Shown here: one piece after another, positions 1 through 21,662 of the stretch
Layout: every line of letters begins with the position of its first letter
Numbering within the stretch: position 1 is the first letter of the stretch
Virus record (IMG/VR): IMGVR_UViG_3300006802_000269
Location: 1 to 34,601 of that record
Length of the DNA stretch: 34,601 bases
Strand: one strand, 5' to 3'
Source: a virus
The notes under the pieces: model-generated
Seen by the model: the letters and a program-made list of their open reading frames with translations, nothing else
What the model was told of the DNA's origin: nothing
Databases searched by the model: none
Position numbers and translations under genes: made by a program

Positions 1-843
1 CCGTACATCAGCGGCGACGGCGAAGCATCCACAACCGAATGGTCTACGCCATCATGGCTACCCAACGTGGAGCGCGACGGCCCAGAGGGCTGCTTGCTTA
101 TGGATGAGCTAATGCTTGGCACTCAATCAGCGCAATTCGCGTCTTACCAGCTACTAAACGATGGTCGGCTTGGCGACTACATCCTGCCCAAGGGCTGGTT
201 TGTTATCGCTGCATCTAATCGACCCAATGACGGTGCTGGTGTGTCTGGCCGCATCGACGCTGCCGTAAGTACAAGATTCAAGTATCACTTGGATGTTGTG
301 CCGTCCGCTGCTGAGACCAGCGACTACCTTGCAGACACTGGCGCTAACCCGCTTGTGGTTGCGTTCCTGAAGTTTCGCGGTGAGGCATCAGGTGATCAGG
401 CCGGACTCATTCACGAGTTCCCCGATGGCGGCACACCTAAAGACAGGGTGGCTATCGCTACACCTCGCGGCTGGCAATCAGTGTCTGACATTCTCAGTGA
501 CGATTTACCTGCTGATCTTGAGCAGATCGCCATTGAGGGTGCCGTAGGATTCGGCGCTGCCGCTGAGTTTATGGCGTTTGTCCGCACCATGCGTAACCTG
601 CCAGACATCAACTTGTTTCTGTCAGATCCGCACAACGTGCCGCTGCCGAATGAGATCACTACTCAGTATGCAGTGACCGCTGCGCTGGCTGCACGGGTGA
701 CCACTGACAACCTTGGCAATGCAGTGGTTGTTCTCAAGCGCATCAACGAAGAACTGGTCGAGGTGTTCTGGGCGCTGGCAACGCGCCGCGATGCAGACCT
801 GCTATCAACCCCTGAGTATGTGGCCCACAAGGCCACTCGCTAA
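1..843 (+). CDS. MoxR/CobS-like AAA+ ATPase, 5' truncated by window edge
   Basis: The frame is open from base 1, so the N-terminal part with Walker A lies outside the window; 280 residues remain. A GTG at 67 is inside the ATPase core and is not a credible start. Visible motifs are Walker B (CLLMDEL, about residues 31-37), sensor 1 (AASNRPND) and the conserved arginine region after VSGRID, followed by a lid-like segment (ATPRGWQSVSDIL). Members of this family remodel protein complexes together with VWA-domain partners. The next two genes are such a partner set, so a MoxR-VWA chaperone-like role is inferred. Marine phages often carry relatives annotated 'cobS', but nothing here supports cobalamin synthesis. 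A UUCG hairpin follows the stop. Confidence 0.85.
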   Translation, partial: PYISGDGEASTTEWSTPSWLPNVERDGPEGCLLMDELMLGTQSAQFASYQLLNDGRLGDYILPKGWFVIAASNRPNDGAGVSGRIDAAVSTRFKYHLDVVPSAAETSDYLADTGANPLVVAFLKFRGEASGDQAGLIHEFPDGGTPKDRVAIATPRGWQSVSDILSDDLPADLEQIAIEGAVGFGAAAEFMAFVRTMRNLPDINLFLSDPHNVPLPNEITTQYAVTAALAARVTTDNLGNAVVVLKRINEELVEVFWALATRRDADLLSTPEYVAHKATR

Positions 844-851
844 ACCCCAAC

Positions 852-868
852 GGGGCTTCGGCCCCTTT
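852..868 (+). terminator. UUCG-capped intercistronic hairpin, copy 1
   Basis: A perfect 5-bp stem, GGGGC-TTCG-GCCCC, is followed by TTT, eight bases after the ATPase stop codon. The UUCG tetraloop is exceptionally stable in RNA. The short T tract suggests a weak terminator or a 3'-end stabiliser that lowers expression of downstream genes relative to the ATPase. An identical hairpin follows the VWA gene (3110-3123). Confidence 0.5.
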
Positions 869-889
869 ACTATTTCGGAGTCAATGACT

Positions 890-1765
890 ATGGATAAGAT
901 CCAAAACAACGCAATGCTGGTTACAGCAACAATCACCAAGTTCGCTAACAAAACAAGAGACGCAGAACTGTCTGCTGATGTGGCCGCTCGCCAACAGGGC
1001 AACCCGAAAAGCTTCACCGTTACACGACGGCTTTTAGAGGCCGCGCCAATCAAAGCTTTGAGTAGGATTGTTGGGCAACTACGCAATACAGTCCTCAACC
1101 CGCTGAGCGTACCTTGGGAAGATGGGGTCAGGCTTATGCCTGTCGAGAACATCGAAACCTTTGAGGCTGAGTGGATCAAGAAAGTTGACTATGCAGAAGA
1201 GCTAAAGCGCGAGGTTGTGCGCGAGTGGCCTAAAATTCTTAAAGATGCTGCAATCAACTCCGGCTTGTCTTTCGACATTAACGACTACCCCTCGCCTGAG
1301 TACATCATTAGCAAGTACCAGTTCAGCTATGAGCTTCGCGCTATGCCTGATTCTGGCGATATCAGAGTCAACCTACCCGCAGAAAAGATTGCCAAGATAA
1401 AGGCCGACACCGAGGCCCGTATCACTCAGCGCGTCGAGGCTGCTGCTGAGTCTGTGCATGAGCGTGTAGTCGATACCTTACAGGCTCTGATCGACGGCTT
1501 AGAGCGTCACGGCATCAAGGCTGACGGTGCCAAGCGTGCGAGCAAGTTCACCGACAACACTGTCGAAAAGATTGAGGAACTGGCTGCTGTGCTGCCCAGC
1601 CTTAACATCACGGGTGACCCCAAGCTGACCCAAGCTGGCAACGCCCTGCTGACCAAGCTTGCAGACCTAGACCCAGCCAAGCTGCGCGAGTCCAAGACTG
1701 AGCGCAAGGCTGTTGCTGACACTGCCAAGTCCATTGTGGATAACCTCACTGGCCTATGGGATTAA
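890..1765 (+). CDS. DUF3150-like protein, partner in MoxR-VWA cluster
   Basis: This 291-aa protein is soluble and mostly helical, with no signal peptide or membrane segment. ATG 890 is preferred because GGAG at 877-880 sits nine bases upstream, the same spacing used by neighbours; an in-frame ATG at 884 lies too close to that site. Long helical stretches rich in Ala, Glu and Lys fill the second half (from about residue 165). From memory it resembles the DUF3150 proteins that occur between a MoxR/CobS-like ATPase and a VWA protein in phages, plasmids and ICEs; gene order here matches exactly. The molecular role is unknown; an adaptor or regulatory subunit is an inference from position. It is 13 bp upstream of the VWA gene. 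Confidence 0.7.
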   Translation: MDKIQNNAMLVTATITKFANKTRDAELSADVAARQQGNPKSFTVTRRLLEAAPIKALSRIVGQLRNTVLNPLSVPWEDGVRLMPVENIETFEAEWIKKVDYAEELKREVVREWPKILKDAAINSGLSFDINDYPSPEYIISKYQFSYELRAMPDSGDIRVNLPAEKIAKIKADTEARITQRVEAAAESVHERVVDTLQALIDGLERHGIKADGAKRASKFTDNTVEKIEELAAVLPSLNITGDPKLTQAGNALLTKLADLDPAKLRESKTERKAVADTAKSIVDNLTGLWD

Positions 1766-1778
1766 CGGAGTAATAGTT

Positions 1779-3110
1779 ATGGATGCTATGCAGATCATTC
1801 TAGAGGCGCGCAAGCGCCTTCTGAAAACCTTCCCCTACTTTGCCTTCCGCGCATATCAACTGGAGCTGATCCCCAGCACCAAGACTGCGACGATGGCAAC
1901 CGATGGCAAGGCTATCCACTTCAATGAGCAGTGGGTTGTCGGGCAGGAAAAGGAACACGGTGTGCGGTTCATCATGACCGTGATTGCCCACGAGGTGATG
2001 CACGTTGATGGGTTCCATCACCTACGCAAGGGTAACCGTGACCACAAGCTGTGGAACGAAGCTGCCGACTACGCAATCAACTACGCGCTAGTGCGTGACG
2101 GGTTCGATGTTTTCGGTGGCCTCTACAGCACCGACTACATTGGTATGTCTGCTGAGCAGATCTACACAATTATCAGCAAGCCACAGCCTCAGTCTGAGGG
2201 TGACCAGCCCAGCAACGATGAAGGCGAGGGCGAGCAGTGCGACGATGGCGAAGGTCAGGCACAGGCTGGCGACAACGGCACCCAAGACGGCGACCAGCCT
2301 AGCTCTGGCGGCGCTGAGGGCGACGGTGAGGGCGACAGTGGCTCCGCTGCTGGTGATGGCCCTGCTGATCCTGACGCGCCTTGGGGCGAGGTATGGGAGG
2401 CTGCTGGTGACGATGGGCAGGGTATGTCTGAGGCCGCTAAGGCTGAAGCTGAGCGCGAGATCGCTTCGCAAGTGTTTGAGGCTGCTAAGGCCCATGAGAA
2501 GATCCGCGACAGTGGCTCTGGTCGAGGCGCGAGTGTTGACCAGATCATCAGCGGATTCTCTGGTGATCCGGTGCCTTGGCACCAGCACCTCAAGTCTGCG
2601 TTTGATCAGTTCGTTTTGTCTGAGCATACCTATGCTCGACCCAATCGTCGGCTGCTATCGCAAGGCTTGATACTGCCCACGCAAAACCGCGAGCCTAACG
2701 GTGAGTTGGTTGTGGTGCAGGATGTCAGCTACTCCATGACTCAGGAAGAGTTGGATATGAATGCTGGGCATGTGCAGGACATCATTGACGAGGTGCAGCC
2801 TATCAAGACTGTGGTCATTTACTGCCACGATGTAGTGTGCGGTGTCGAGGAGTTCGACAGGCATGAAGAGCTAACGCTCAAGATTCCTGAGTTCGGCGGT
2901 ACTGAGTTCAATCCACCGTTCAACTATGTTGAGCGCAACGATATCGAACCATGCGCGATGATCTACTTCACCGATGGCTGGGGCGAGGTTGGGCCTAATG
3001 CACGGCACGACTTCACCATGCCTGACTATCCGGTGTTCTGGGCAACCACTGACCGCGACCCTATGTGGCGAGGCTGTGAGCCTTTTGGTGAAATCATCAA
3101 AGTAACCTAG
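1779..3110 (+). CDS. DUF2201-type metallopeptidase-like and VWA-domain protein
   Basis: This 443-aa protein starts at ATG 1779 with GGAG eight bases upstream. Domain 1 (about residues 1-130) has an HExxH motif (AHEVMH, near residue 71) followed by further His and a NEAADYAIN segment, as in the putative metallopeptidase domain of DUF2201 proteins. Residues about 135-205 are an acidic Gly/Asp/Glu-rich linker. Domain 2 is VWA-like, with a MIDAS-type DVSYS near residue 315, GGTEF near 373 and FTDGWGE near 398. In this family the VWA domain is thought to dock on a MoxR-type ATPase, consistent with the gene at 1-843. Protease activity is not shown by sequence. A UUCG hairpin begins at its last stop base. 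Confidence 0.8.
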   Translation: MDAMQIILEARKRLLKTFPYFAFRAYQLELIPSTKTATMATDGKAIHFNEQWVVGQEKEHGVRFIMTVIAHEVMHVDGFHHLRKGNRDHKLWNEAADYAINYALVRDGFDVFGGLYSTDYIGMSAEQIYTIISKPQPQSEGDQPSNDEGEGEQCDDGEGQAQAGDNGTQDGDQPSSGGAEGDGEGDSGSAAGDGPADPDAPWGEVWEAAGDDGQGMSEAAKAEAEREIASQVFEAAKAHEKIRDSGSGRGASVDQIISGFSGDPVPWHQHLKSAFDQFVLSEHTYARPNRRLLSQGLILPTQNREPNGELVVVQDVSYSMTQEELDMNAGHVQDIIDEVQPIKTVVIYCHDVVCGVEEFDRHEELTLKIPEFGGTEFNPPFNYVERNDIEPCAMIYFTDGWGEVGPNARHDFTMPDYPVFWATTDRDPMWRGCEPFGEIIKVT

Positions 3111-11056: not shown

Positions 11057-11450
11057 TATTAAAGGCGCTGGTGTTGGGGAGATACTGGGGCCGATATGCG
11101 CCCTAGTTCCCAACCGCAGCACTGAGATCATGGAGTTGTTCTTGAAGTGCAAGAAGGGCTTGGTGATTGAGCTTAAGCCTGTGCAAAAGAGCAGGAGCAG
11201 GAATCAAGAAAGCTATTACCGCAAATGGTGTAACAGCTTTGCAGATCACTGCGGCATGACACCCGATGAGATGCATGAGGAGATGCTGTGCATAACATTC
11301 GGCAGTGAAGAGGTGCAGACTCGGTTTGGGCCTAGACGCAGGGCTGTGAAGCGTAGTGGTGAAACCAGCGTAACAACATATGCACGGTTAATAGATAACC
11401 TGATCAATACCGCAGCGGAGATGGGGTTTAAGATCCCAACGCCAAGATGA
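11046..11450 (+). CDS. NinB (lambda Orf)-like recombination mediator candidate
   Basis: A 134-aa protein from ATG 11046 (GAAGGG about ten bases upstream); earlier in-frame starts lie deep in the previous gene. The layout resembles NinB-type proteins: a strand ending in ELKPVQKSRSRNQ, a helix (YYRKWCNSFADHCGM), then a C-terminal helix (YARLIDNLINTAAEMGFKIP). Lambda NinB binds DNA and helps load recombinase in place of RecFOR. Sequence similarity here is only to the general pattern. It overlaps the next gene as ATGA. Other small phage recombination proteins are possible. Confidence 0.55.
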   Translation: MRLDIKGAGVGEILGPICALVPNRSTEIMELFLKCKKGLVIELKPVQKSRSRNQESYYRKWCNSFADHCGMTPDEMHEEMLCITFGSEEVQTRFGPRRRAVKRSGETSVTTYARLIDNLINTAAEMGFKIPTPR

Positions 11451-11863
11451 GGCCTACATACGAAACCGATGAGGATATCGAATACGAGTCTCACGTTGCT
11501 GGCTTGTTTGCGAGCAAGCACAACATGCAATGGGTAAGGAATCCGCCAAAGTACCCAATAGACATTAGCTTCAGGCGAGGGCCAGATATTGTTTTGTTCG
11601 CTGAGATCAAGTGCCGAAAGGTACGGAAGGATGTCTACGAAACCTACATGATATCGGTATCAAAGGTCATGGCGGCTAAGGCTTTGACCGATGCAACTGG
11701 GGTTCCTTGCATATTGATTGTGAAATGGAAGGATCAGGCTGGGTGGATCAACTTCAAGGAAAAACCAAACGGCGTCGGTTTTGGTGGGCGCGTTGACCGC
11801 AGTGACAACCAAGACATGGAGCCAGTGGTGTACTACGATATTGAAAGGTTTAAGGATTTATAA
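11447..11863 (+). CDS. PD-(D/E)XK nuclease or resolvase-like protein
   Basis: A 138-aa protein beginning in an ATGA overlap with the NinB-like gene. The catalytic signature is Glu14 in an N-terminal helix, YPIDI with Asp39, then FAEIKCRK with Glu53 and Lys55, the D...ExK core of PD-(D/E)XK enzymes such as archaeal Hjc and VRR-type nucleases. A following helix (VSKVMAAKAL) and strand (VPCILIVKWK) complete the usual fold. It is probably a structure-specific endonuclease of the recombination module, additional to the RusA-like enzyme. Confidence 0.72.
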   Translation: MRPTYETDEDIEYESHVAGLFASKHNMQWVRNPPKYPIDISFRRGPDIVLFAEIKCRKVRKDVYETYMISVSKVMAAKALTDATGVPCILIVKWKDQAGWINFKEKPNGVGFGGRVDRSDNQDMEPVVYYDIERFKDL

Positions 11864-12049
11864 CTGCGAGAAAAGGGCAGGTGAGTGGCAGCATCAGTCT
11901 CTCCAACATGGGATTTTGATCTCCCGCAATACAAAGAGGCCCGATGAAGTGTGGATCGCAGCGGCGGTTGACTAGCCGAGTCACCACCAATCGGGTCATC
12001 TGCCACAACTGAATTTGAATTGGCTCAGGGTATTCATCACACCCTCCAT

Positions 12050-12081
12050 CACCGTTCCCGTCCGGTGGAGCCGAAGGCGGG
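12050..12081 (+). promoter_or_regulatory. Pseudoknot RNA element 1
   Basis: Stem 1 is CACCG (12050-12054) with CGGTG (12063-12067). The loop's CCCGTC (12057-12062) is complementary to GGCGGG (12076-12081), one pair being G-U, forming stem 2. Loop lengths of 2, 0 and 8 fit a classical H-type pseudoknot. An alternative pairing of CTCCA with TGGAG competes with stem 1. The known precedent is the pseudoknot in T4 gene 32 leader RNA; no known class is matched here. Confidence 0.65.
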
Positions 12082-12137
12082 GCTAATAAGATCGGCAGCT
12101 ACGCTTGTGTAATTCCTTCAAGTAAGGCTGCTTGGTA

Positions 12138-12168
12138 ACCCTTCCCCGTCAGGGTGATCGAAGGCGGG
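12138..12168 (+). promoter_or_regulatory. Pseudoknot RNA element 2
   Basis: Stem 1 is ACCCT (12138-12142) with AGGGT (12151-12155); loop CCCGTC (12145-12150) pairs with GGCGGG (12163-12168). Loop lengths are 2, 0 and 7. Against element 1, three of five stem-1 pairs are changed on both sides while loop and stem 2 are the same, which supports selection on structure. It ends nine bases before the GAGG site and 18 before the ATG of the HTH gene, a suitable place for translational control. Confidence 0.7.
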
Positions 12169-12185
12169 ACTTTAACGAGGTAACA

Positions 12186-12455
12186 ATGAATAAATTCGTA
12201 CAAGCAATAAGATCGCAAGAGGCTTACATGAAGAAGCCTAAGCCTAAAAAGAACAATTTACCCGAAGACAGGCGTCCACCAGTAAAGGAGTCCCAGATCA
12301 TGCGGATACTTCTGTTGCAAAAAAACGGCGTTCAGCCAAGGCACATAGCTGGTGAGGTCGGGGTGCCAGTGCAGACTATCTATAACGTGCGTCAGCGTTA
12401 CTGCCTGATTGATGTTGAGGGTGAAGGCAAGTGGTACAAGTACTTGGGGGTTTAG
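12186..12455 (+). CDS. Small helix-turn-helix DNA-binding protein
   Basis: An 89-aa protein starts at ATG 12186 with GAGG five bases upstream; the longer open frame from 12132 runs through the RNA elements and is rejected. A basic N-terminal region (KKPKPKKNN) precedes a homeodomain-like HTH (about residues 38-70; GVQPRHIAGEVGVPVQTIYNV), then a short C-terminal wing-like tail (GKWYKYLGV). It likely binds DNA as a phage regulator. The structured leader directly upstream suggests post-transcriptional control, possibly autogenous. It abuts the next gene without a gap. Confidence 0.75.
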   Translation: MNKFVQAIRSQEAYMKKPKPKKNNLPEDRRPPVKESQIMRILLLQKNGVQPRHIAGEVGVPVQTIYNVRQRYCLIDVEGEGKWYKYLGV

Positions 12456-12644
12456 ATGGACGATAAAGAAACCGTAGAAGAATTCCTAGCCCGTGGCGGC
12501 AAGATTGAAAAGGTGCCGTTTGGAAAGATCACAGATGAAAATAATAGTCTTAGCAAAACCTTCACTGTGCGAGCAAATGTCCGAGCAGGTCAGAAGCTGC
12601 ACACCAAAACAGACAAGCTGAACAAGCTACAGAAGCGACGATAG
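12456..12644 (+). CDS. Hypothetical 62-aa basic protein
   Basis: The ATG lies directly after the HTH stop, behind a GGGGG stretch. The N-terminus (VEEFLARGGKIEKVPFG) matches a pattern common in small phage and bacterial proteins of unknown function. The C-terminus is strongly basic (KLNKLQKRR). Its last 18 bases overlap the 3' end of the 3011-aa gene on the other strand, leaving no space for a conventional terminator between the blocks. Confidence 0.65.
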   Translation: MDDKETVEEFLARGGKIEKVPFGKITDENNSLSKTFTVRANVRAGQKLHTKTDKLNKLQKRR

Positions 12645-15600
12645 CCTGTCTGCGACTTTTTCAGCGATGGTGGGTAGCTGAATGTATCTTTCAAGCTGAG
12701 GAACAATCTGTAAGTAGTAACGCTCTTGTTCGTTTATCAGCTTTATGGCCTCTTGCTTTTGCGCCGCTGTTAGATCCGCTTTTAATATCGTCCTTCTTTG
12801 ATTCCGCAGGTCGGATAGCGCCGTTGCAGTAGGCTGCAATTGAGACTTCAGCCCCAAGAACTGTCTGTTATTAACGAGATAACTCTCAAGCTCATCAGTC
12901 CTGCCGTCTTCATAAAGCTTTTTAGTTGTTTGCTCTACGCGCTTAATGTAGTCCCACATCTCGTAGAAGTCTTCTTTTGCACCACCGCCGAACTCTGAGC
13001 CAAAGAACCGTCTGATAATTGGGTACTGAGAAACATCTTTACCCGCAAGAACAGCCCTGTTGTCACCTTGCACATAGCTGTCTCTTAGCACGTAATCAAG
13101 GCCGCCTAAGAAGTACATACCTATTGTTCCGCCGTATCCGTTCATTAGGTGATCTATTTTTATCGGACTAATACCAACGACCTTCGACATGTTCTTGGCG
13201 ATCTCACTGGTGGATGCAAGCTCTTGGAATTGTGGATCTAAGTTGCCCTCTATGAACACTGGAGTAACAGGTCGGCCAGTGTACAGGTCGTAGTTCATGT
13301 AAGCTTCTATGAGTGGCGTGATCGCTTGCGGTGGCTGAATGCCAAGTGTTCCAAATACGGCTCGCTGAACAGATTGCTGGGCTTCTCTGGGTGTAGTGCC
13401 TTCGTTGTATGAGTCTATGATGCGCTCTGGCAAAGTCTTAAACAACAACCCAACTTCAAACGGGATCGGCACTCGTACTGGTACACCAGACGCTGTAGGT
13501 ATAATCCAGTAATTATCTTTTACTTCTTCTGTCTGTTCTTTGTACTGCTCATCATCGCTAAACATTGCGTAGTAAATAGCTGTACTGGCGGCTATCAGCG
13601 AGCCTCTTGCGAACGCACTCCTAGCTGCTTGACCCCTAGAAAGCTCTCTGTTTGCACTGCTCTTCCCTGATAGGCCTCGGTATAGAACGTCCAATCCTTG
13701 AAGCCTTGCGTTTAGGAATGGGATTGTGGCTGTAAGTATACGCATTCCAACATTGCTGCCTCGACGCCCGAAGTTAAGAACCTCCATTGCTTGAAAGCTT
13801 GCCTCAGCTTCGTTGCCAGTGCGAGCGAGGACATCTTTATAGACCGCGTTTCTCGTTGCGGCGTCAGACCTTGTGGTCGCTTGGCCCATCACATCCCAAG
13901 CACCAATGAAGAGTTTAGAGATAGGATCTCTCTGTTTTACGTTCTTGTTTCTTTTTTGCAGGATCTTCCCTGCGTACTCGCCAATGTTTTCTGGGTCATT
14001 CTTGTAGTCATAACCGCCTACAACGCCAGTCCGCTCAAGCTTTTCCATGCCTTCTGCGTAGCCAAAAATAGTGTCAATGACGGGCGTAAACTTAGATCCT
14101 GAAGTTACAAATGCAGACAATGAGTCTCTGAGCATGTTGGCTATAACAAACCCCGGCTCGCGGGTGACCATCTCTCTAAGGAATCGTGCAGGGACTCCAG
14201 CAGTCTTAGATATAAACTGCTCAAACCCACCAGCGGGTTCAACAGTTAACGACTCATATATTAACGGGTCATCAATGATGAAGTTGCGTCGGTTGCCGTC
14301 TACCTTGAACGTAACAACAGCCTCGCCAGTGGTTCTTTGCCCCGGCTTAACCTCTCTTGCAAGACCAAGATTTCTCATGTCCCTGACAATGCGTTGCTGG
14401 GCGACATTCTTCATGCCCATGCTTATGGCCGCATTAAGGTTCATTGATATGGCTTCCAACATGGGCACGTTGATCTCTTTCTTGCTGCCCTTGATGGCTT
14501 TTAGGTCTGCGCTGCCAGTTAATCCTCCGAATATATTCGGCGCATTTGGCGTTTCAGCGCCTTCTACTTGGCGATAAAACGGTATGTAGTCAGACTGATC
14601 CCGCCACATCTCAGCAGTCTCTGGGTCAACAACACCTGTGTCTTGCAAGAACTGAACGGTGTAACCGTTGTAGTCCTGCCAAGCGTCGTACCAGTCCTTA
14701 ATAATTGAGTTGCCGTTCTCATCCAAGAATGACTCGGCTGTAGCTATGTTTGCTGCGTGGTCTGCCGGGGTTCCGGGTACATCAATACCCTTCGCTTTTA
14801 GCCTCTCAGCCCTTTTAGCTATTGAGTAAGCCTGAGCTAACTGCTCCAAAGATCCATGCTCTTTTGTGTACAGCATAGACATGAGGTCAATAAGACCGCC
14901 AATCTTTTGGGTTTCGCCTCGACTGTTGGTGTGTTCAAAGTCAACAATCTTAGTCATGCCGCCTGTGTAGACCGGAACACCGTACTGCAATGCCGCAGCA
15001 GTGATGGCGTTTGATCTGTCAGCCATGAGCGCGGCAGCTATTGACGAGGAATCAGCTAATAAATTACCAAGCGCGCCCTGATAATTTTCAAGTTGTGCGT
15101 ACCTGTTGATTGCTTTTTGTTTGAGTCGAGTCAGGCTGAGTGCTATTGGGCCTTGATCCAAGACGTTTAAGTAGGTCTGCCCCGGCGTGTTTGTAGGTAG
15201 CTCTGCGACCACATTGTCTACAGCAGCTTGATCTAGTGGATTAATTATTGGGGCGTTTGCTCTAGAAAAGGCTGGCATTTCGCTCGCTGGAACTTCCTGA
15301 CCTTTGTCGGGGTTAGCTGCAACAGCTTGAGCGTATGGGTCTGCGCCGGGGTTGAAGCGAGGAACTGTGCTTACTGGCCTGTTTTCGGCTACCTGTAAGT
15401 TATCCTCTACTACACGGTCAACTTCACTTTGACCGATTACTTCTTTAGCTAGGTTTTCTGGCCTTCTGCTGAACGCTGGGCTTTCTTCCGCATCGAATCC
15501 TGAATCATCTTGACGAACAGATCCATCTTGCCCTCTGGCACCTGACCGACTATCGACGGCTCGCTGTCTGTCTGCGTCCCTGAGTGCTTTTTCAACTTGT

Positions 15601-18600
15601 CCACGGGGTACTCCCTCTTTTTCGGCCAGTATTTCAGCAGCGTCTAAGTAGTCGTTGTCTGATCCCCGTCCGGGTTGAACGCCTAACGCTCTGAATAATT
15701 GCTTTTCAGGATACCACATCAACGCTTGGAAGTCGGCGGTGGTTATGTCATACCCAGCTTCAGACAGGCGCTCTCTAGCAGCAGCCGTAACCTCGCGCAT
15801 GTATTGACGCTCTGATCCGCTTTTAGGCGTGGCTTGTAGTTGCTTTTTCAGGTTCTTAACAAACGTGCCTGTCTTCTTGAATATCTCAGGCTTTACATGG
15901 TTAACCCCATGCTCCTTCTTATAGTCCTTGAAGTAACGCTGATACCTGCGCTCTACAGACTGTATGAACTCATCAAACAGGTACGGGTCTTTAACGATCT
16001 CGCTGTAGGGCTGGTCAGAACCCTCTAGGGCGTCCTTTATAATTGTCCTCGGAAGACCGCCAACCTTGTCGATCATTGGGATCAATTCACCGCGAGCCTT
16101 AGCTAAGTCTGGTGGAGCAGCGAATGGGCGTCCCACAGCGCGGTTCCACATACGCATCCACCAAATATCCATAGTAAGCGGATCATAGTTACCGCGAATG
16201 TTCTGGTAAAAACCCTGACCTATCTTTGGCCCAAGGATGTAGCTTCCTTTGACTTGAACATCAACGCCCTCAGCGCCCGGAACCTTAATGGCCTCAAATC
16301 CAACCTCGTTGTTGAACGCCTTAGCCATATCCCTTAGCTCGTTAACTGTAAAGTCAGCGTCTAAGAAGTCGGCAACACGCATGTTCTGACCGCTTGCTTC
16401 GTAAGCGTTGTGGAAGTTGAACGCCTCAAGCATTGCGTTGTTACGCTCACCACCCTTGTTAAATTCTTTTTTGTTTTTTGGAAGCCTGCCTTTATCCATG
16501 TAGAAACGGAACATGTCCGTAGCCATTTCAAAGTTGTCCACCACGGCCTGCCCGTTTGATGTAACAGCCAGAACAAAGTCAAATACGGCCTCCGTCTCAG
16601 GCGACTGCATTATTCTAGGCTCGACAACCTTCATCACTTCTTTTGCGGCCTTAATCTTTCGGTCATACCAGCCAATAGCATTGCCGTCTTTTTCTAGGGC
16701 AACCATTGCCTCTGTGGCAAGCATGTCAGACAAGATGCCAATGTTTTCTTCTGTGTACTCAAAAGGCTCCGTTCTACCCGTAGCAGCCTCCCACCTGTCC
16801 TGTAGGAACTGTGCCGCTTCAGCAAGTGTCCTTTTCTTTTCAGGCTTGTAGGTGTTGTTCTTCATCTGCTCCAACTCTTCACTAGTTGGTAACAGATCGG
16901 TATTTGTCATACCAAGGCGTTCCGCCTCGCCCATAGGGCTTAGCGGTCTTCTAGAAAAAACTGGGCCATCATAATCTTTGTCAGCAAGCAGTGGCTTTGT
17001 CTTGAAGACAGGAGTGCCGTCCTCTGCAAATCCTTCAAGGTCAAAAGGTATTGTTTTTGGAAACTCCAACTGAAATGGTTCTAAGGCGCGGAGCTTTTCA
17101 TCAGGGTCGCGTACTCTAGATTCGCTTGTCAGGCCTACTAAACGCCTGTCATCTTCTTTGTACAAAACTCTTGGTCTTGCATCTTTTTCACCGAACCGTA
17201 ACTCGCCAGCTTCGCCACCGATGGACGTTAGGGTGACAGGCATTAACGTATCGCCATATCCCTGATCCCTGTAAAGCCTAGACCTGTGCCTTCCCTCATG
17301 GCCTGCAATGGTCGCAGCGCCTCGCCTGTTAGCCTTGAACTGAAGAAAGTTGGGCTGGAATCTTTCTCCAGCATCAAACATCTCCTGAACTCGCTCAGTT
17401 TTAGAAAACTCAGTTCCCGTCATCGCCAAGTTTAAGAACTCATTAGGAGTCATCATTACAACGGTAGATCTTGATGCTGGGTCTACAGCGTCACGGAATT
17501 GCTGATCTACTTCTTTTGGATCTAGAAACTGCTGAGTGATTGGAGAAGAATCAATGTAAGCTCTGACCTGTTCGTTTGTTAAGCCCTCCTCCCTAGAAAA
17601 CACGGGGGATTCTGCAAAATCAGGATCTGTTGCAGGAGCGGCTTCACCGCCAAGTTGTGAGATATTTCTAGCAACGATGCCCTTAGTCGCTGACGCATCA
17701 ATAGGTTGTGCTAACTGCTCAGGATCAATCATTTCGTAAAGAAACTTTGACTGCCCCGGCTTGATATCAAACTTGCTGCCTTCAGGCACGAGATGTTGAT
17801 CTCTTGAATCGGCAAATTCTGCTTCGCCTACCTCAATAGGCTCCCCCACAGTAGCGTAACCAACAAGTTTTGCAGGGCCAGAGCCTGTCTCCACTATGCC
17901 AATACGCTTACCCACATAGGGGCGCAGCGAGTCTTTGTCGCGTGTCTCGTATTTTTTCTGACCGCTGACAATCAACTCGGCATAATTAGTATCTCCATCA
18001 GTTCTGACGTTGATACCCATCTCAGCCTCTATTGGCACCCTAGAAGAGGCTGGGGCTTCGTCAAAGTCAGCAATGGTTTGCCCCGTTGCTGTGGGCACGG
18101 GGCGCTCTGCGTCCTCGCCTGTGGTGACAACAGCGCCTTTATCTTGCAGGGTCTTTAACCTTCTGGATGCTCTCTTCTGTGTCTGAGCAAGCGTGCGTAT
18201 CTGGCCGCGCTCTCTAGCGCCAATCGCTCCAGACTCTATGCCACCTATGACCTCGCTGAACGTGTTGAACTCCTCGCCCTTGAGGCTGGATACCATGTTC
18301 CTGAAGAATCTAGCTATACGCTCAACTAAGGATCGGGGCTTGCCCTGAAGCAACTTGGGATCTTTTCTTGCAGCCCTTACTAACTCGGCAACAGACTCCT
18401 CTACTTGATCAACGGGCGATAAGTCTGAGTAATTGTCTTGTGCCCATTTCAGGAACGTCTTGCCGTCTGGCATCTTTTTGTTTGCAGCAGCCCTAGAAAG
18501 CAAGCTCCACTCTTTGTTCGTGAACAAATCAAGCTTACGCATGGCGTGAATCATTTCGTGATCTAGTATCTCAAGCAGCGCAGCCTCTACTTGAGCCTCG

Positions 18601-21600
18601 GTCATAGAGGGATCAGCCATGACTTTGTCTATTGACAAGAAAATAGTGTTTATAGTCGGGTCGTAATACGCCTCAGCCCTGCCCTCTGGATCAATCTCAT
18701 CAGACCTCACAAGTTGAGTTTTTTCACGACTGGGGTCTAGAGTTACTGACTCGCCACCAACAACCATGCTGTCTATATCACCGCCTTGACGGGGCCGTAT
18801 GCCGTAGACTAGGTTCCCATTAGCGTCTTTGACCGCCGTTCTTAGGGCGTAATCAAGGCTTAGCCCCACATCCTTCAGACCAAAGCCTTTCATTGTTTTA
18901 GTAATAGCTTTGCGTAATCGGTCAACATTTACCGCTGGCGCAGGCAGCGCCAATACCTCGGCTTCTTGCTCCACAACAGGCTCCGCTTCAACGGCTGGAG
19001 CAGCCTGTACACCTTGCTTGGCTAGGTCTGCCTTTAGATCGCTTAGAGCGGCAGCACCTTGCTGTGTTGTTGGGTTGATACCAGTGGCATTAGCAAGAAC
19101 AACCTCGCCTGCATTGGGGTTTTCTTGCAGCGTCTTTGATGCCGCGCGGAACTGAGCGCCTGTGTACTTGGGAAGCTTGAAGGTAGGAAGCTTTGTCGGC
19201 TTGTCAAAACGTGGCAACGATCTGAGCTTTTGATACAACAACCTAGACTCAGCCAATGACAAATCGTTTACCGACTTGATGGTCTTCTTGCCTAGTATTC
19301 TGCCTGCAAGATACTTGATCTCAGGAGAGCCTACTTTTGATGTAATGTTCTTAGCTTTGAGAAGCTGCTCCATCTCTTGGAAGTTGGCGTCAACATTACG
19401 CATGACACCCTTCTCAACAGCGGCTTTGCCTGTGCGATTGTTGAGTTGGTTTGCATAGACCCTAGCGTCGGCTTCTGTCTTGAACTTAACAAGCTTAGGC
19501 GGCTTCTTCTTCGGGTTTGCTTTGATTGCAGCGTCTTTTTCTAGGGTGGTCAGAGGCCTGCCTTGCAGAATCTCACCAGCACTGCTCTTCACTATCGGGT
19601 TGTTGTTCTTACTTAGGCCAGCCCTGTACGTTTCAGTCTCAGGTAAGCCATTCACCCGTGTATCGCTAAGATTGTATAGCTGGTCTTCTTTGAGGACGCT
19701 TCTTACTTCTTGAATAGTAAACGTGTTTGTTACTGGCAGCCCTTGACGCAGACGCTTAGCGTTTATGCGCTGAGATGCTGTCATCTTAGTAGGGCCAACC
19801 CTGTCCTGCATTAACACCTTAACGTCGGCTGTTTCATCAAAGCCACGGTCTTGCGTTGTCTCAGCTGCGCTGTCTACGGCAACAGAACTATATGTATTTG
19901 AGTCAGGATGGTTTGCAGCAAAGTTGTAGGCCTGCAACGAGGATTCTTGATCGGCGTCGTATGATTCTGGTGATGATGTGATCACCGCGTCTCCACCAGA
20001 GAACACGTTGTCATTGATCATTTCATCGTTAAGGAACCCAGCAAGAGCAAATGCATCTTCAGAGTTCTGTAAAGGCACACCGTATTGCTGACCGTTGCTG
20101 TCTTGCACTGTAAATACAGGGACGCCTTGAGCGTCAAGCTGTGTGGTACTAGCGCCTACACCACCAAAATCTTCTGGCAACTTAACAGTGAACGTGTTGT
20201 CGGCTGATGGGAAGTTGTCGCCCATTGTTTGGCGAATTGATTGTGCGTATGCAAGCATTGGTTGCTTGGGATATCGACGCTGTATGCCCTCAGTAGGCTG
20301 TGCAACTGTGGTGATTTGGAATCCAGATTGTTGCGGTACACCATTGACTGAGGTTATTACTTCACCGCCGCCGGGAGCTTCTATGTAAGTCGTGACGGAT
20401 TCTGTGGGCTTTCCCTTGTTCCTTACTCTGGTCTTTTCTTCTGCTTGAAATGACTCGCCATTAGGCGCGGTTACAGAAACAATCCTTGATGGGGTCTTTA
20501 ACTTAGATGTAAGCGCCCTGCCTGTAGGAGGCGCTATTTGGGATGGGTCTATCGGTGCCTCACCAGCGGCCCTGCGAGCTTCATTTGCAGCTTGGCGGTC
20601 AAGTGCTGCTTCAGCGTCTATTCTTTCTTGTATAGCTAAGTCACCAGAGAGAAGACGCTGCCTTGCGTCCTGAGCGTCTTGCAAATCCTCTCTAAGCTTG
20701 CCCTCAGCCTCTTCTGCGGCTTGGAAGGCTCCCTTGTTGCGTCTACCAGCCACAGCATTAATAACAAGATCTGCACCCGCACCAACAGCGCCGCCGATGG
20801 TGAAATCATCCATCAAGCTGCCGCCATTTATTTCCAAAGCTTCGTTGTATACACCTCGCTCAATACCGTCTTGAGCAATACTTGCAGCAACTTCCTGTAT
20901 ACCCTCCACGCTGCCCGTTCTAAGAGCAGAAGAAAGTCTTTCTTTTATGCCTGAAGGCAGTTTGTTACCAGCCTCAAGACCTCTAAGCCTGTTTAATAAT
21001 CTTTGAGGAACAATAAGCTCAGATAAACCAACGCCACCACCAAGCAAAACAGACAAGTCTTCTTCGTCTTCCGACACTTCTAGACCTGAATCACGGGCCG
21101 CTTGTATTCTTTGAGCTTGATCACCAGCACCTGTGCCTACGGCCAAAGCCCCGGTAGCGCCAATCTCAGCAACCTTTGCTGCTTTTGCTGCGGATATGCC
21201 CTTGCCTGCCATGCCTGCAAGCTTTATTGCTCCGGCAGGGGTAAAGAACGAGGCAAACGAACCCACGCCTTCGCCAAACTTAGTGAGCCACTGATCCCTG
21301 TACGCGAGATCAGCGCCCATCGCTTCATCAACTGCGGCACGGCCTTCCCTAGCAGCGCGTACTAGATCATTCTCATCGCCACTATCTATTAACTCCTCAA
21401 GGCCTATCGCGTTGGTGCCAGCATCAGCAAGCTCAGCTAGACCTTCACCAGCAGACAAGAACGCATTGGCAAAGCCACGGCCTATCCCTTTAGCAGTCTC
21501 AAAAGCTTGGCCTGATGCAGTCCTTTCATCCTCAAACGGATCAAAGCCTAGCTCATCAGCGGTTGCTATGTTGTTTCTTATAAGCTTTTCGGCAAGATCT

Positions 21601-21662
21601 TTTTTGCTTGTTCCTTCAGGAACGCCGTATACAACAAGCCCATTTGGAAGAGTTACATCCAT
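12627..21662 (-). CDS. 3011-aa polyvalent protein, probably ejected with DNA
   Basis: A giant late-operon protein. Residues 1-330 contain Gly/Ala-rich hydrophobic helices suggestive of membrane insertion. Near 1036 a DHEMIHAMRKLDLF segment (HExxH) with VEESVAELVR near 1090 suggests a zincin-like peptidase. About 1215-1310 is ASCH/PUA-like (YAELIVSGQKKYETR). Around 1455 lies GHEGRHRSR in a conserved-looking module. About 1590-2040 is a helical domain with GWYDRKI and LAVTSNGQAV. About 2140-2990 resembles large polyvalent protein-associated domain LPD38, with one hydrophobic segment. A P-x-F-S-R motif recurs at domain boundaries near 1356, 1570, 2064 and 2132, with a variant near 1207. Such proteins are thought to enter the host with phage DNA and blunt defences. 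Enzyme activities are inferred. Confidence 0.85.
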   Translation of the reverse strand: MDVTLPNGLVVYGVPEGTSKKDLAEKLIRNNIATADELGFDPFEDERTASGQAFETAKGIGRGFANAFLSAGEGLAELADAGTNAIGLEELIDSGDENDLVRAAREGRAAVDEAMGADLAYRDQWLTKFGEGVGSFASFFTPAGAIKLAGMAGKGISAAKAAKVAEIGATGALAVGTGAGDQAQRIQAARDSGLEVSEDEEDLSVLLGGGVGLSELIVPQRLLNRLRGLEAGNKLPSGIKERLSSALRTGSVEGIQEVAASIAQDGIERGVYNEALEINGGSLMDDFTIGGAVGAGADLVINAVAGRRNKGAFQAAEEAEGKLREDLQDAQDARQRLLSGDLAIQERIDAEAALDRQAANEARRAAGEAPIDPSQIAPPTGRALTSKLKTPSRIVSVTAPNGESFQAEEKTRVRNKGKPTESVTTYIEAPGGGEVITSVNGVPQQSGFQITTVAQPTEGIQRRYPKQPMLAYAQSIRQTMGDNFPSADNTFTVKLPEDFGGVGASTTQLDAQGVPVFTVQDSNGQQYGVPLQNSEDAFALAGFLNDEMINDNVFSGGDAVITSSPESYDADQESSLQAYNFAANHPDSNTYSSVAVDSAAETTQDRGFDETADVKVLMQDRVGPTKMTASQRINAKRLRQGLPVTNTFTIQEVRSVLKEDQLYNLSDTRVNGLPETETYRAGLSKNNNPIVKSSAGEILQGRPLTTLEKDAAIKANPKKKPPKLVKFKTEADARVYANQLNNRTGKAAVEKGVMRNVDANFQEMEQLLKAKNITSKVGSPEIKYLAGRILGKKTIKSVNDLSLAESRLLYQKLRSLPRFDKPTKLPTFKLPKYTGAQFRAASKTLQENPNAGEVVLANATGINPTTQQGAAALSDLKADLAKQGVQAAPAVEAEPVVEQEAEVLALPAPAVNVDRLRKAITKTMKGFGLKDVGLSLDYALRTAVKDANGNLVYGIRPRQGGDIDSMVVGGESVTLDPSREKTQLVRSDEIDPEGRAEAYYDPTINTIFLSIDKVMADPSMTEAQVEAALLEILDHEMIHAMRKLDLFTNKEWSLLSRAAANKKMPDGKTFLKWAQDNYSDLSPVDQVEESVAELVRAARKDPKLLQGKPRSLVERIARFFRNMVSSLKGEEFNTFSEVIGGIESGAIGARERGQIRTLAQTQKRASRRLKTLQDKGAVVTTGEDAERPVPTATGQTIADFDEAPASSRVPIEAEMGINVRTDGDTNYAELIVSGQKKYETRDKDSLRPYVGKRIGIVETGSGPAKLVGYATVGEPIEVGEAEFADSRDQHLVPEGSKFDIKPGQSKFLYEMIDPEQLAQPIDASATKGIVARNISQLGGEAAPATDPDFAESPVFSREEGLTNEQVRAYIDSSPITQQFLDPKEVDQQFRDAVDPASRSTVVMMTPNEFLNLAMTGTEFSKTERVQEMFDAGERFQPNFLQFKANRRGAATIAGHEGRHRSRLYRDQGYGDTLMPVTLTSIGGEAGELRFGEKDARPRVLYKEDDRRLVGLTSESRVRDPDEKLRALEPFQLEFPKTIPFDLEGFAEDGTPVFKTKPLLADKDYDGPVFSRRPLSPMGEAERLGMTNTDLLPTSEELEQMKNNTYKPEKKRTLAEAAQFLQDRWEAATGRTEPFEYTEENIGILSDMLATEAMVALEKDGNAIGWYDRKIKAAKEVMKVVEPRIMQSPETEAVFDFVLAVTSNGQAVVDNFEMATDMFRFYMDKGRLPKNKKEFNKGGERNNAMLEAFNFHNAYEASGQNMRVADFLDADFTVNELRDMAKAFNNEVGFEAIKVPGAEGVDVQVKGSYILGPKIGQGFYQNIRGNYDPLTMDIWWMRMWNRAVGRPFAAPPDLAKARGELIPMIDKVGGLPRTIIKDALEGSDQPYSEIVKDPYLFDEFIQSVERRYQRYFKDYKKEHGVNHVKPEIFKKTGTFVKNLKKQLQATPKSGSERQYMREVTAAARERLSEAGYDITTADFQALMWYPEKQLFRALGVQPGRGSDNDYLDAAEILAEKEGVPRGQVEKALRDADRQRAVDSRSGARGQDGSVRQDDSGFDAEESPAFSRRPENLAKEVIGQSEVDRVVEDNLQVAENRPVSTVPRFNPGADPYAQAVAANPDKGQEVPASEMPAFSRANAPIINPLDQAAVDNVVAELPTNTPGQTYLNVLDQGPIALSLTRLKQKAINRYAQLENYQGALGNLLADSSSIAAALMADRSNAITAAALQYGVPVYTGGMTKIVDFEHTNSRGETQKIGGLIDLMSMLYTKEHGSLEQLAQAYSIAKRAERLKAKGIDVPGTPADHAANIATAESFLDENGNSIIKDWYDAWQDYNGYTVQFLQDTGVVDPETAEMWRDQSDYIPFYRQVEGAETPNAPNIFGGLTGSADLKAIKGSKKEINVPMLEAISMNLNAAISMGMKNVAQQRIVRDMRNLGLAREVKPGQRTTGEAVVTFKVDGNRRNFIIDDPLIYESLTVEPAGGFEQFISKTAGVPARFLREMVTREPGFVIANMLRDSLSAFVTSGSKFTPVIDTIFGYAEGMEKLERTGVVGGYDYKNDPENIGEYAGKILQKRNKNVKQRDPISKLFIGAWDVMGQATTRSDAATRNAVYKDVLARTGNEAEASFQAMEVLNFGRRGSNVGMRILTATIPFLNARLQGLDVLYRGLSGKSSANRELSRGQAARSAFARGSLIAASTAIYYAMFSDDEQYKEQTEEVKDNYWIIPTASGVPVRVPIPFEVGLLFKTLPERIIDSYNEGTTPREAQQSVQRAVFGTLGIQPPQAITPLIEAYMNYDLYTGRPVTPVFIEGNLDPQFQELASTSEIAKNMSKVVGISPIKIDHLMNGYGGTIGMYFLGGLDYVLRDSYVQGDNRAVLAGKDVSQYPIIRRFFGSEFGGGAKEDFYEMWDYIKRVEQTTKKLYEDGRTDELESYLVNNRQFLGLKSQLQPTATALSDLRNQRRTILKADLTAAQKQEAIKLINEQERYYLQIVPQLERYIQLPTIAEKVADRLSSLL

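Follow-up and report, generated by a model that had tools for sequence, protein, structure and literature searches.

An operon on the plus strand of the window, the whole 34,601-nucleotide stretch of viral DNA analysed here, encodes an exonuclease, a Sak annealing protein, an SSB, NinB and a PDDEXK endonuclease; from position 12627 on, the late genes run towards it. The endonuclease gene (11447-11863; PDDEXK_14 phage endonuclease, PF24579, E 2e-33) is followed in the same operon, and on the same strand as every feature of the element described below, by a gene for an 89-aa HTH protein (12186-12455; PF13384 HTH_23, E 1.7e-5; PHROG 664 DNA binding protein, E 4e-4). This next ORF confirms the position upstream of an HTH gene that the first-pass annotation had assigned to an RNA structure in the intervening sequence.

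Further along, a 62-aa ORF (12456-12644) matches the SutA RNA-polymerase-binding domain below threshold (E 5.7e-6; 26 bits, where the cut-off is 29.3), and locus L164 has a similar ORF upstream of its own RNA array. A single ORF of 3011 aa (12627-21662) on the late strand takes up about a quarter of the window. At the left end (67-3110), an ORF precedes a DUF2201 metallopeptidase/VWA-like protein.

Architecture of the tandem element

The sequence between the endonuclease and HTH genes carries two copies of an RNA element, the second beginning one base past the first. Direct reading of their cores, CACCG-tt-CCCGTC-CGGTG-gagccgaa-GGCGGG (12050-12081) and ACCCT-tc-CCCGTC-AGGGT-gatcgaa-GGCGGG (12138-12168), bears out much of what had been noticed initially: both share CCCGTC and GGCGGG, the loop lengths are 2/0/8 and 2/0/7, and three of the five pairs of stem 1 differ on both strands between the copies while pairing is kept. 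The pattern CCCGTC...GAAGGCGGG matches twice in the window and never in 100 dinucleotide-preserving shuffles.

The proposed simple H-type pseudoknot, by contrast, gives way to a three-way junction with a pseudoknot, each core being part of a larger element whose helix P1 had been overlooked. The loop-3 strands GAGCC of copy 1 and GATC of copy 2 are complementary to upstream GGCTC and GATC, and the two sides change together between copies and between genomes, which adds the helix P1 and extends the unit to about 66 nt. Its order is UUUA, P1, A, the P2 hairpin, about 4 nt, P3, UU, CCCGUC, P3', P1', GAA, GGCGGG and RCU, and the pseudoknot comprises the 6 bp formed by CCCGUC in the P3 loop with the GGCGGG strand shortly 3' of P1.

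Copy 1 (12019-12084; 57.9 bits with the covariance model R1) pairs the P1 strand GGCTC (12022-12026) with GAGCC (12068-12072), which lies within the loop 3 of the initial description. Its P2 hairpin, AGGGT-loop-ACCCT, reads directly from the sequence at 12027-12045, and P3 (CACCG/CGGTG, 12050-12067) encloses L1 (UU) and the pseudoknot strand CCCGUC (12057-12062), whose partner GGCGGG is at 12076-12081. Copy 2 (12086-12171; 39.7 bits with the same model) forms P1 between GATC at 12090-12093 and GATC at 12156-12159, as read from the sequence and from the covariation of P1. Its P2 hairpin (12094-12132), which also appears in the computed nested fold, is the hairpin previously taken for a linker; the hairpin exists, but as P2 of copy 2 rather than as a separate joining piece. 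P3 (ACCCT/AGGGT, 12138-12155) holds L1 (UC) and CCCGUC (12145-12150), which pairs with GGCGGG (12163-12168), and the Shine-Dalgarno-like GAGG of the HTH gene (12177-12180) follows 8 nt past this last strand.

Covariation and distribution

The same element occurs in at least about 100 IMG/VR phage contigs, gathered by a search for the HTH protein and a search of viral contigs for the conserved core; a first loose scan of the collection with CCCGTC..GNAGGCGGG had returned mostly chance matches. With a site pattern blind to stem 1, TTCCCGTC(10-16 nt)GGCGGGRCT, all five stem-1 pairs were formed at 95 of 119 viral sites, as against 6 of 120 sites in the bacterial and archaeal genomes of GTDB. The best-pair score of P1 averaged 4.59 in the real elements and 4.06 (sd 0.05) when upstream sequences were exchanged between elements.

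When 43 diverse elements are aligned, standard pairs fill 94.7% of pair cells, compared with 80.4% in shuffles, and the covariation score reaches 0.454 where shuffles give 0.170, neither real value being reached in any of 500 shuffles; sliding the partners by one column reduces pairing to about half. P1 is paired in 98.8% of cells, P2 in 79% and P3 in 97.7%, with changes on both sides in 4/4, 4/4 and 5/5 modelled pairs, respectively. These 43 elements had been picked for pairing, and the honest controls are therefore the stem-1-blind test, the P1 exchange and those further copies that the model brought in afterwards. Likewise, every pair of the pseudoknot is formed in 43/43 aligned elements, a conservation that is partly circular because the search pattern fixed both strands. 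Neighbouring copies found by the model rather than by the pattern nevertheless carry the compensated pseudoknots GCCGUC/GACGGC, CCCAGC/GCUGGG, UCCGUC/GGCGGA and CCUGUC/GGCAGG, and a further one, CUCGUC/GACGAG, was seen by eye at L149:4138.

The covariance model, a search with which the first-pass annotation had proposed, gives at least 168 matches in 100 sources and thus recovered relatives with compensatory changes among viral contigs. Its 120 distinct matches present the same covariation picture, P2 being the weakest helix (paired in 83% of cells), and the nine highest APC-corrected covarying column pairs, out of all column pairs, are all base pairs of the model. The closing pair of P3 is G-U in 67 of these 120 matches and would read A.C on the other strand; such G-U pairs identify the gene strand as the transcribed one. 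One additional pair of columns covaries (101/127 in alignment A2): the second base of L1 changes from U to G when a pseudoknot pair changes from U.G to U-A, plausibly as a base triple. Nested minimum-energy folding, which leaves out pseudoknots, is not significant (z = -0.03 and -1.33 for copies 1 and 2, respectively). With the nested folding energy unexceptional, it is covariation rather than stability that carries the case for the fold.

The first reading could assign the element to no riboswitch class, and no Rfam family matches it. Rfam 15 gives 0 matches in the window at the gathering threshold, only a chance sR39 on the opposite strand for the element in E-value mode (11.6 bits against a gathering value of 50), and none for 11 related loci at E up to 1. 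BLAST of the elements against isolate phages and plasmids returned short chance matches only and no annotated phage record. The window's structural protein has relatives in Roseobacter, Pelagibacter and freshwater phages; applied to six related phages from an annotated collection (of Roseobacter, Pelagibacter, Synechococcus and others), the covariance model found no copy. GTDB samples under stricter filters gave matches in none of 369 genomes of one class, a weak one among 385 of a second and three among 295 of a third, the two strong ones in phage-like contigs. The tandem three-way junction of about 66 nt locked by a pseudoknot is a real and previously uncatalogued RNA family, the structure of which we hold to be close to certain.

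Arrays between phage cistrons

Among at least 99 loci, 44 arrays are single, 45 double, nine triple and one quadruple, and adjacent copies usually lie 0-2 nt apart. Almost all of the 52 virus records scanned whole, including contigs of 60 kb and 48.6 kb, contain one array per genome, the exceptions being weaker second sites such as L150:11637. The arrays typically span the distance from the upstream stop codon to the next ribosome site and keep one orientation with respect to the genes on either side. A stop codon on the same strand lies at most 20 nt upstream in 49 of 81 arrays, and in 64 of 83 distinct arrays a start codon with its ribosome site is found 12-58 nt past the last copy; at random sites, a Shine-Dalgarno sequence and start occur within 35 nt in 11% of cases.

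The genes that follow belong to 19 unrelated protein families, and their annotated products include HTH proteins, exonuclease VIII, SNF2 helicase, ERF, C5 methylase, terminase and unknown proteins. Downstream HTH-family genes at five loci (L154, L177, L203, L156 and L212) seem to begin with AUU or AUC (for example ATT AGT AAC TTA TTT TTA AGA GCT), recalling the start codon of infC and hinting at tuned initiation. No tRNA or tmRNA was found near the arrays.

Other arrays are followed differently. One lineage has the order array, terminator-like hairpin, gene, and at L155 and L164 the array ends the early operon and faces converging late genes. A simple terminator scan told little, being positive for 5 of 76 arrays as against 1.2% of random windows, and imperfect hairpins that the eye could pick out escaped it. 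A conserved terminator-like hairpin with a U-run (GCGUG..CGCGC or CACGC) stands between array and gene at six loci (L145, L184, L186, L214, L226 and L253), and its stem also appears to covary.

Possible functions and their alternatives

The best reading of the array, to which we give an even chance, is that of a cis-acting rigid block between cistrons that controls translation and/or decay. As a rigid obstacle on the polycistronic early mRNA, the folded array would separate the messages of its two flanking cistrons. It would make it harder for ribosomes to reach the next gene or to re-initiate there, or would halt ribonucleases, or both, leaving each cistron to be expressed or to decay on its own. 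Since the following genes span so many unrelated families, the array is better understood as a gene-independent insulator or processing device than as a sensor for a single gene, and we know of no RNA element with a comparable gene-independent intergenic placement. Start codons follow at a short, regular distance whatever the gene family, which favours a leader role, but arrays that precede a terminator-like hairpin, or that face a convergent late operon and so have no gene to serve as leader for, argue against a purely translational leader. The single array per genome could equally fit a trans-acting RNA.

A regulatory leader in the classical sense can be considered in several forms. Compact leader pseudoknots, sometimes in tandem, are known from preQ1, SAM-II and glutamine-II riboswitches; the present element differs in having no Rfam match, no constant metabolic gene and no coevolved Shine-Dalgarno sequestration that could be found. 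An expression platform of riboswitch type that acts on the Shine-Dalgarno sequence is unsupported and was rejected, as native elements pair their own ribosome site no better than a swapped one (-13.9 against -14.3 kcal/mol, with the Shine-Dalgarno sequence unpaired at 0.41 and 0.42). By their general layouts, hammerhead, HDV and pistol ribozymes do not match the helix order of the element, the dedicated comparison being the Rfam search. The autoregulatory pseudoknot of T4 gene 32 is likewise located in a phage mRNA just upstream of the ribosome site, although here the units are tandem three-way junctions and the downstream gene varies. An autogenous operator, by which the HTH protein or another phage protein would bind the tandem pseudoknots and repress its own gene as T4 gp32 does, is doubtful. 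No other single family is found downstream as often as HTH (19 of 64, at a spacing of 14-24 nt), an HTH gene is nearby at 45 of 99 array loci and the rarer AUU and AUC starts suggest tuned initiation; against this, 18 further families occupy the same place, and the HTH family was found in only 18 of 36 array-bearing records, in several of which it lies kilobases from the array. With 19 downstream families in all, and HTH missing or distant in many records, autogenous control by the HTH protein is excluded as a general explanation. The HTH protein was accordingly set aside as a universal partner or always-adjacent operator, and of the tandem leader proposed in the first-pass annotation, the tandem covarying pseudoknots in leader position stand, whereas autogenous HTH control as a general rule does not.

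Three further readings can be weighed. Type III toxin-antitoxin loci are defined by the order array, terminator and gene (PMC5086642), which is that of one lineage here, and phages provide a precedent in pseudo-ToxI (PMC3475682), on which a decoy role could be modelled. This ToxI-like role agrees with the tandem pseudoknots (2-4 copies at 55 of 99 loci), the single array per genome and neighbours that are independent of gene identity, yet we judge it unlikely: no toxin-like or ToxN-like endoribonuclease gene follows any annotated array, the unit of about 66 nt with its three-way junction contrasts with the 34-36 nt H-type unit of ToxI, the stems diverge between copies of one array where toxI repeats are near-identical, and samples of alpha- and gammaproteobacterial genomes hold no clear cellular copies. 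ToxI arrays and pseudo-ToxI thus share with the present family their tandem pseudoknot RNAs but not its diverging units or variable downstream gene. It is very improbable that the array works as an antiterminator of the put kind, binding RNA polymerase to suppress termination downstream. The terminator-like hairpin right after some arrays and the similar length of put, a cis-acting phage RNA of about 70 nt, speak for it, but put of HK022 is described as a pair of stem-loops close to early promoters and lacks any reported three-way junction or pseudoknot (PMC9378689), while the arrays stand in the middle of operons or close them, commonly within 20 nt of an upstream stop codon. Possession of a three-way junction with a pseudoknot, in place of two stem-loops near an early promoter, led to the rejection of membership in the put family. 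A recombination or replication site acting at the DNA level, with hairpins formed by single-stranded DNA, would account for tandem copies between variable genes, but it hardly comes into question given the pseudoknot fold, the abundance of strand-asymmetric G-U pairs, as at the closing pair of P3, and the constant orientation with respect to flanking genes.

The intercistronic block also has a more specific and, in our judgement, fairly unlikely form, in which the element would halt a 5'-to-3' ribonuclease such as RNase J, and the downstream message or a stable RNA would survive. The exoribonuclease-resistant RNAs (xrRNAs) of flaviviruses combine a three-way junction with a long-range pseudoknot between loop L3 and downstream sequence, are often tandem, also need the 5' end to form a two-nucleotide pairing with the junction, and in one viral case block bacterial RNase J1 as well (PMC5760640). 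The three-way junction and the L3-S4 pseudoknot are both found in the present element, with covariation in all four helices, and its connectivity is that of the mosquito-borne flavivirus fold, the P3 loop pairing with the strand just 3' of P1. Arrays are moreover found at 5' leaders and operon 3' ends alike, as expected of a position-neutral block. On the other side, the small pairing between 5' end and junction has no support among the top covarying pairs, where the 5' flank and J23 do not covary, although an invariant contact of two bases would be invisible to covariation; connectivity by itself does not yield the ring; and these phage early mRNAs, as opposed to the 3' UTR of an animal virus, offer no sequence or Rfam match. 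The shared connectivity may best be taken as a lead on mechanism and not as evidence of membership. Phages might, though we would not expect it, have independently evolved a counterpart of xrRNA in which tandem knots stop the 5'-to-3' exonucleases of the host. If so, xrRNA-like arrays would carve the early polycistronic mRNA into segments with separate lifetimes or leave stable phage RNA.

Whichever function applies, the analysis adds a new RNA family with exceptionally strong covariation, carried by at least about 100 contigs of uncultured phages and absent from the catalogues searched. The novelty lies in the RNA family and its architecture, and the functional kind is not part of that claim. 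As a short and testable RNA, the element may help to understand how phages insulate cistrons, resist mRNA decay or counter host defences in uncultured bacteria.
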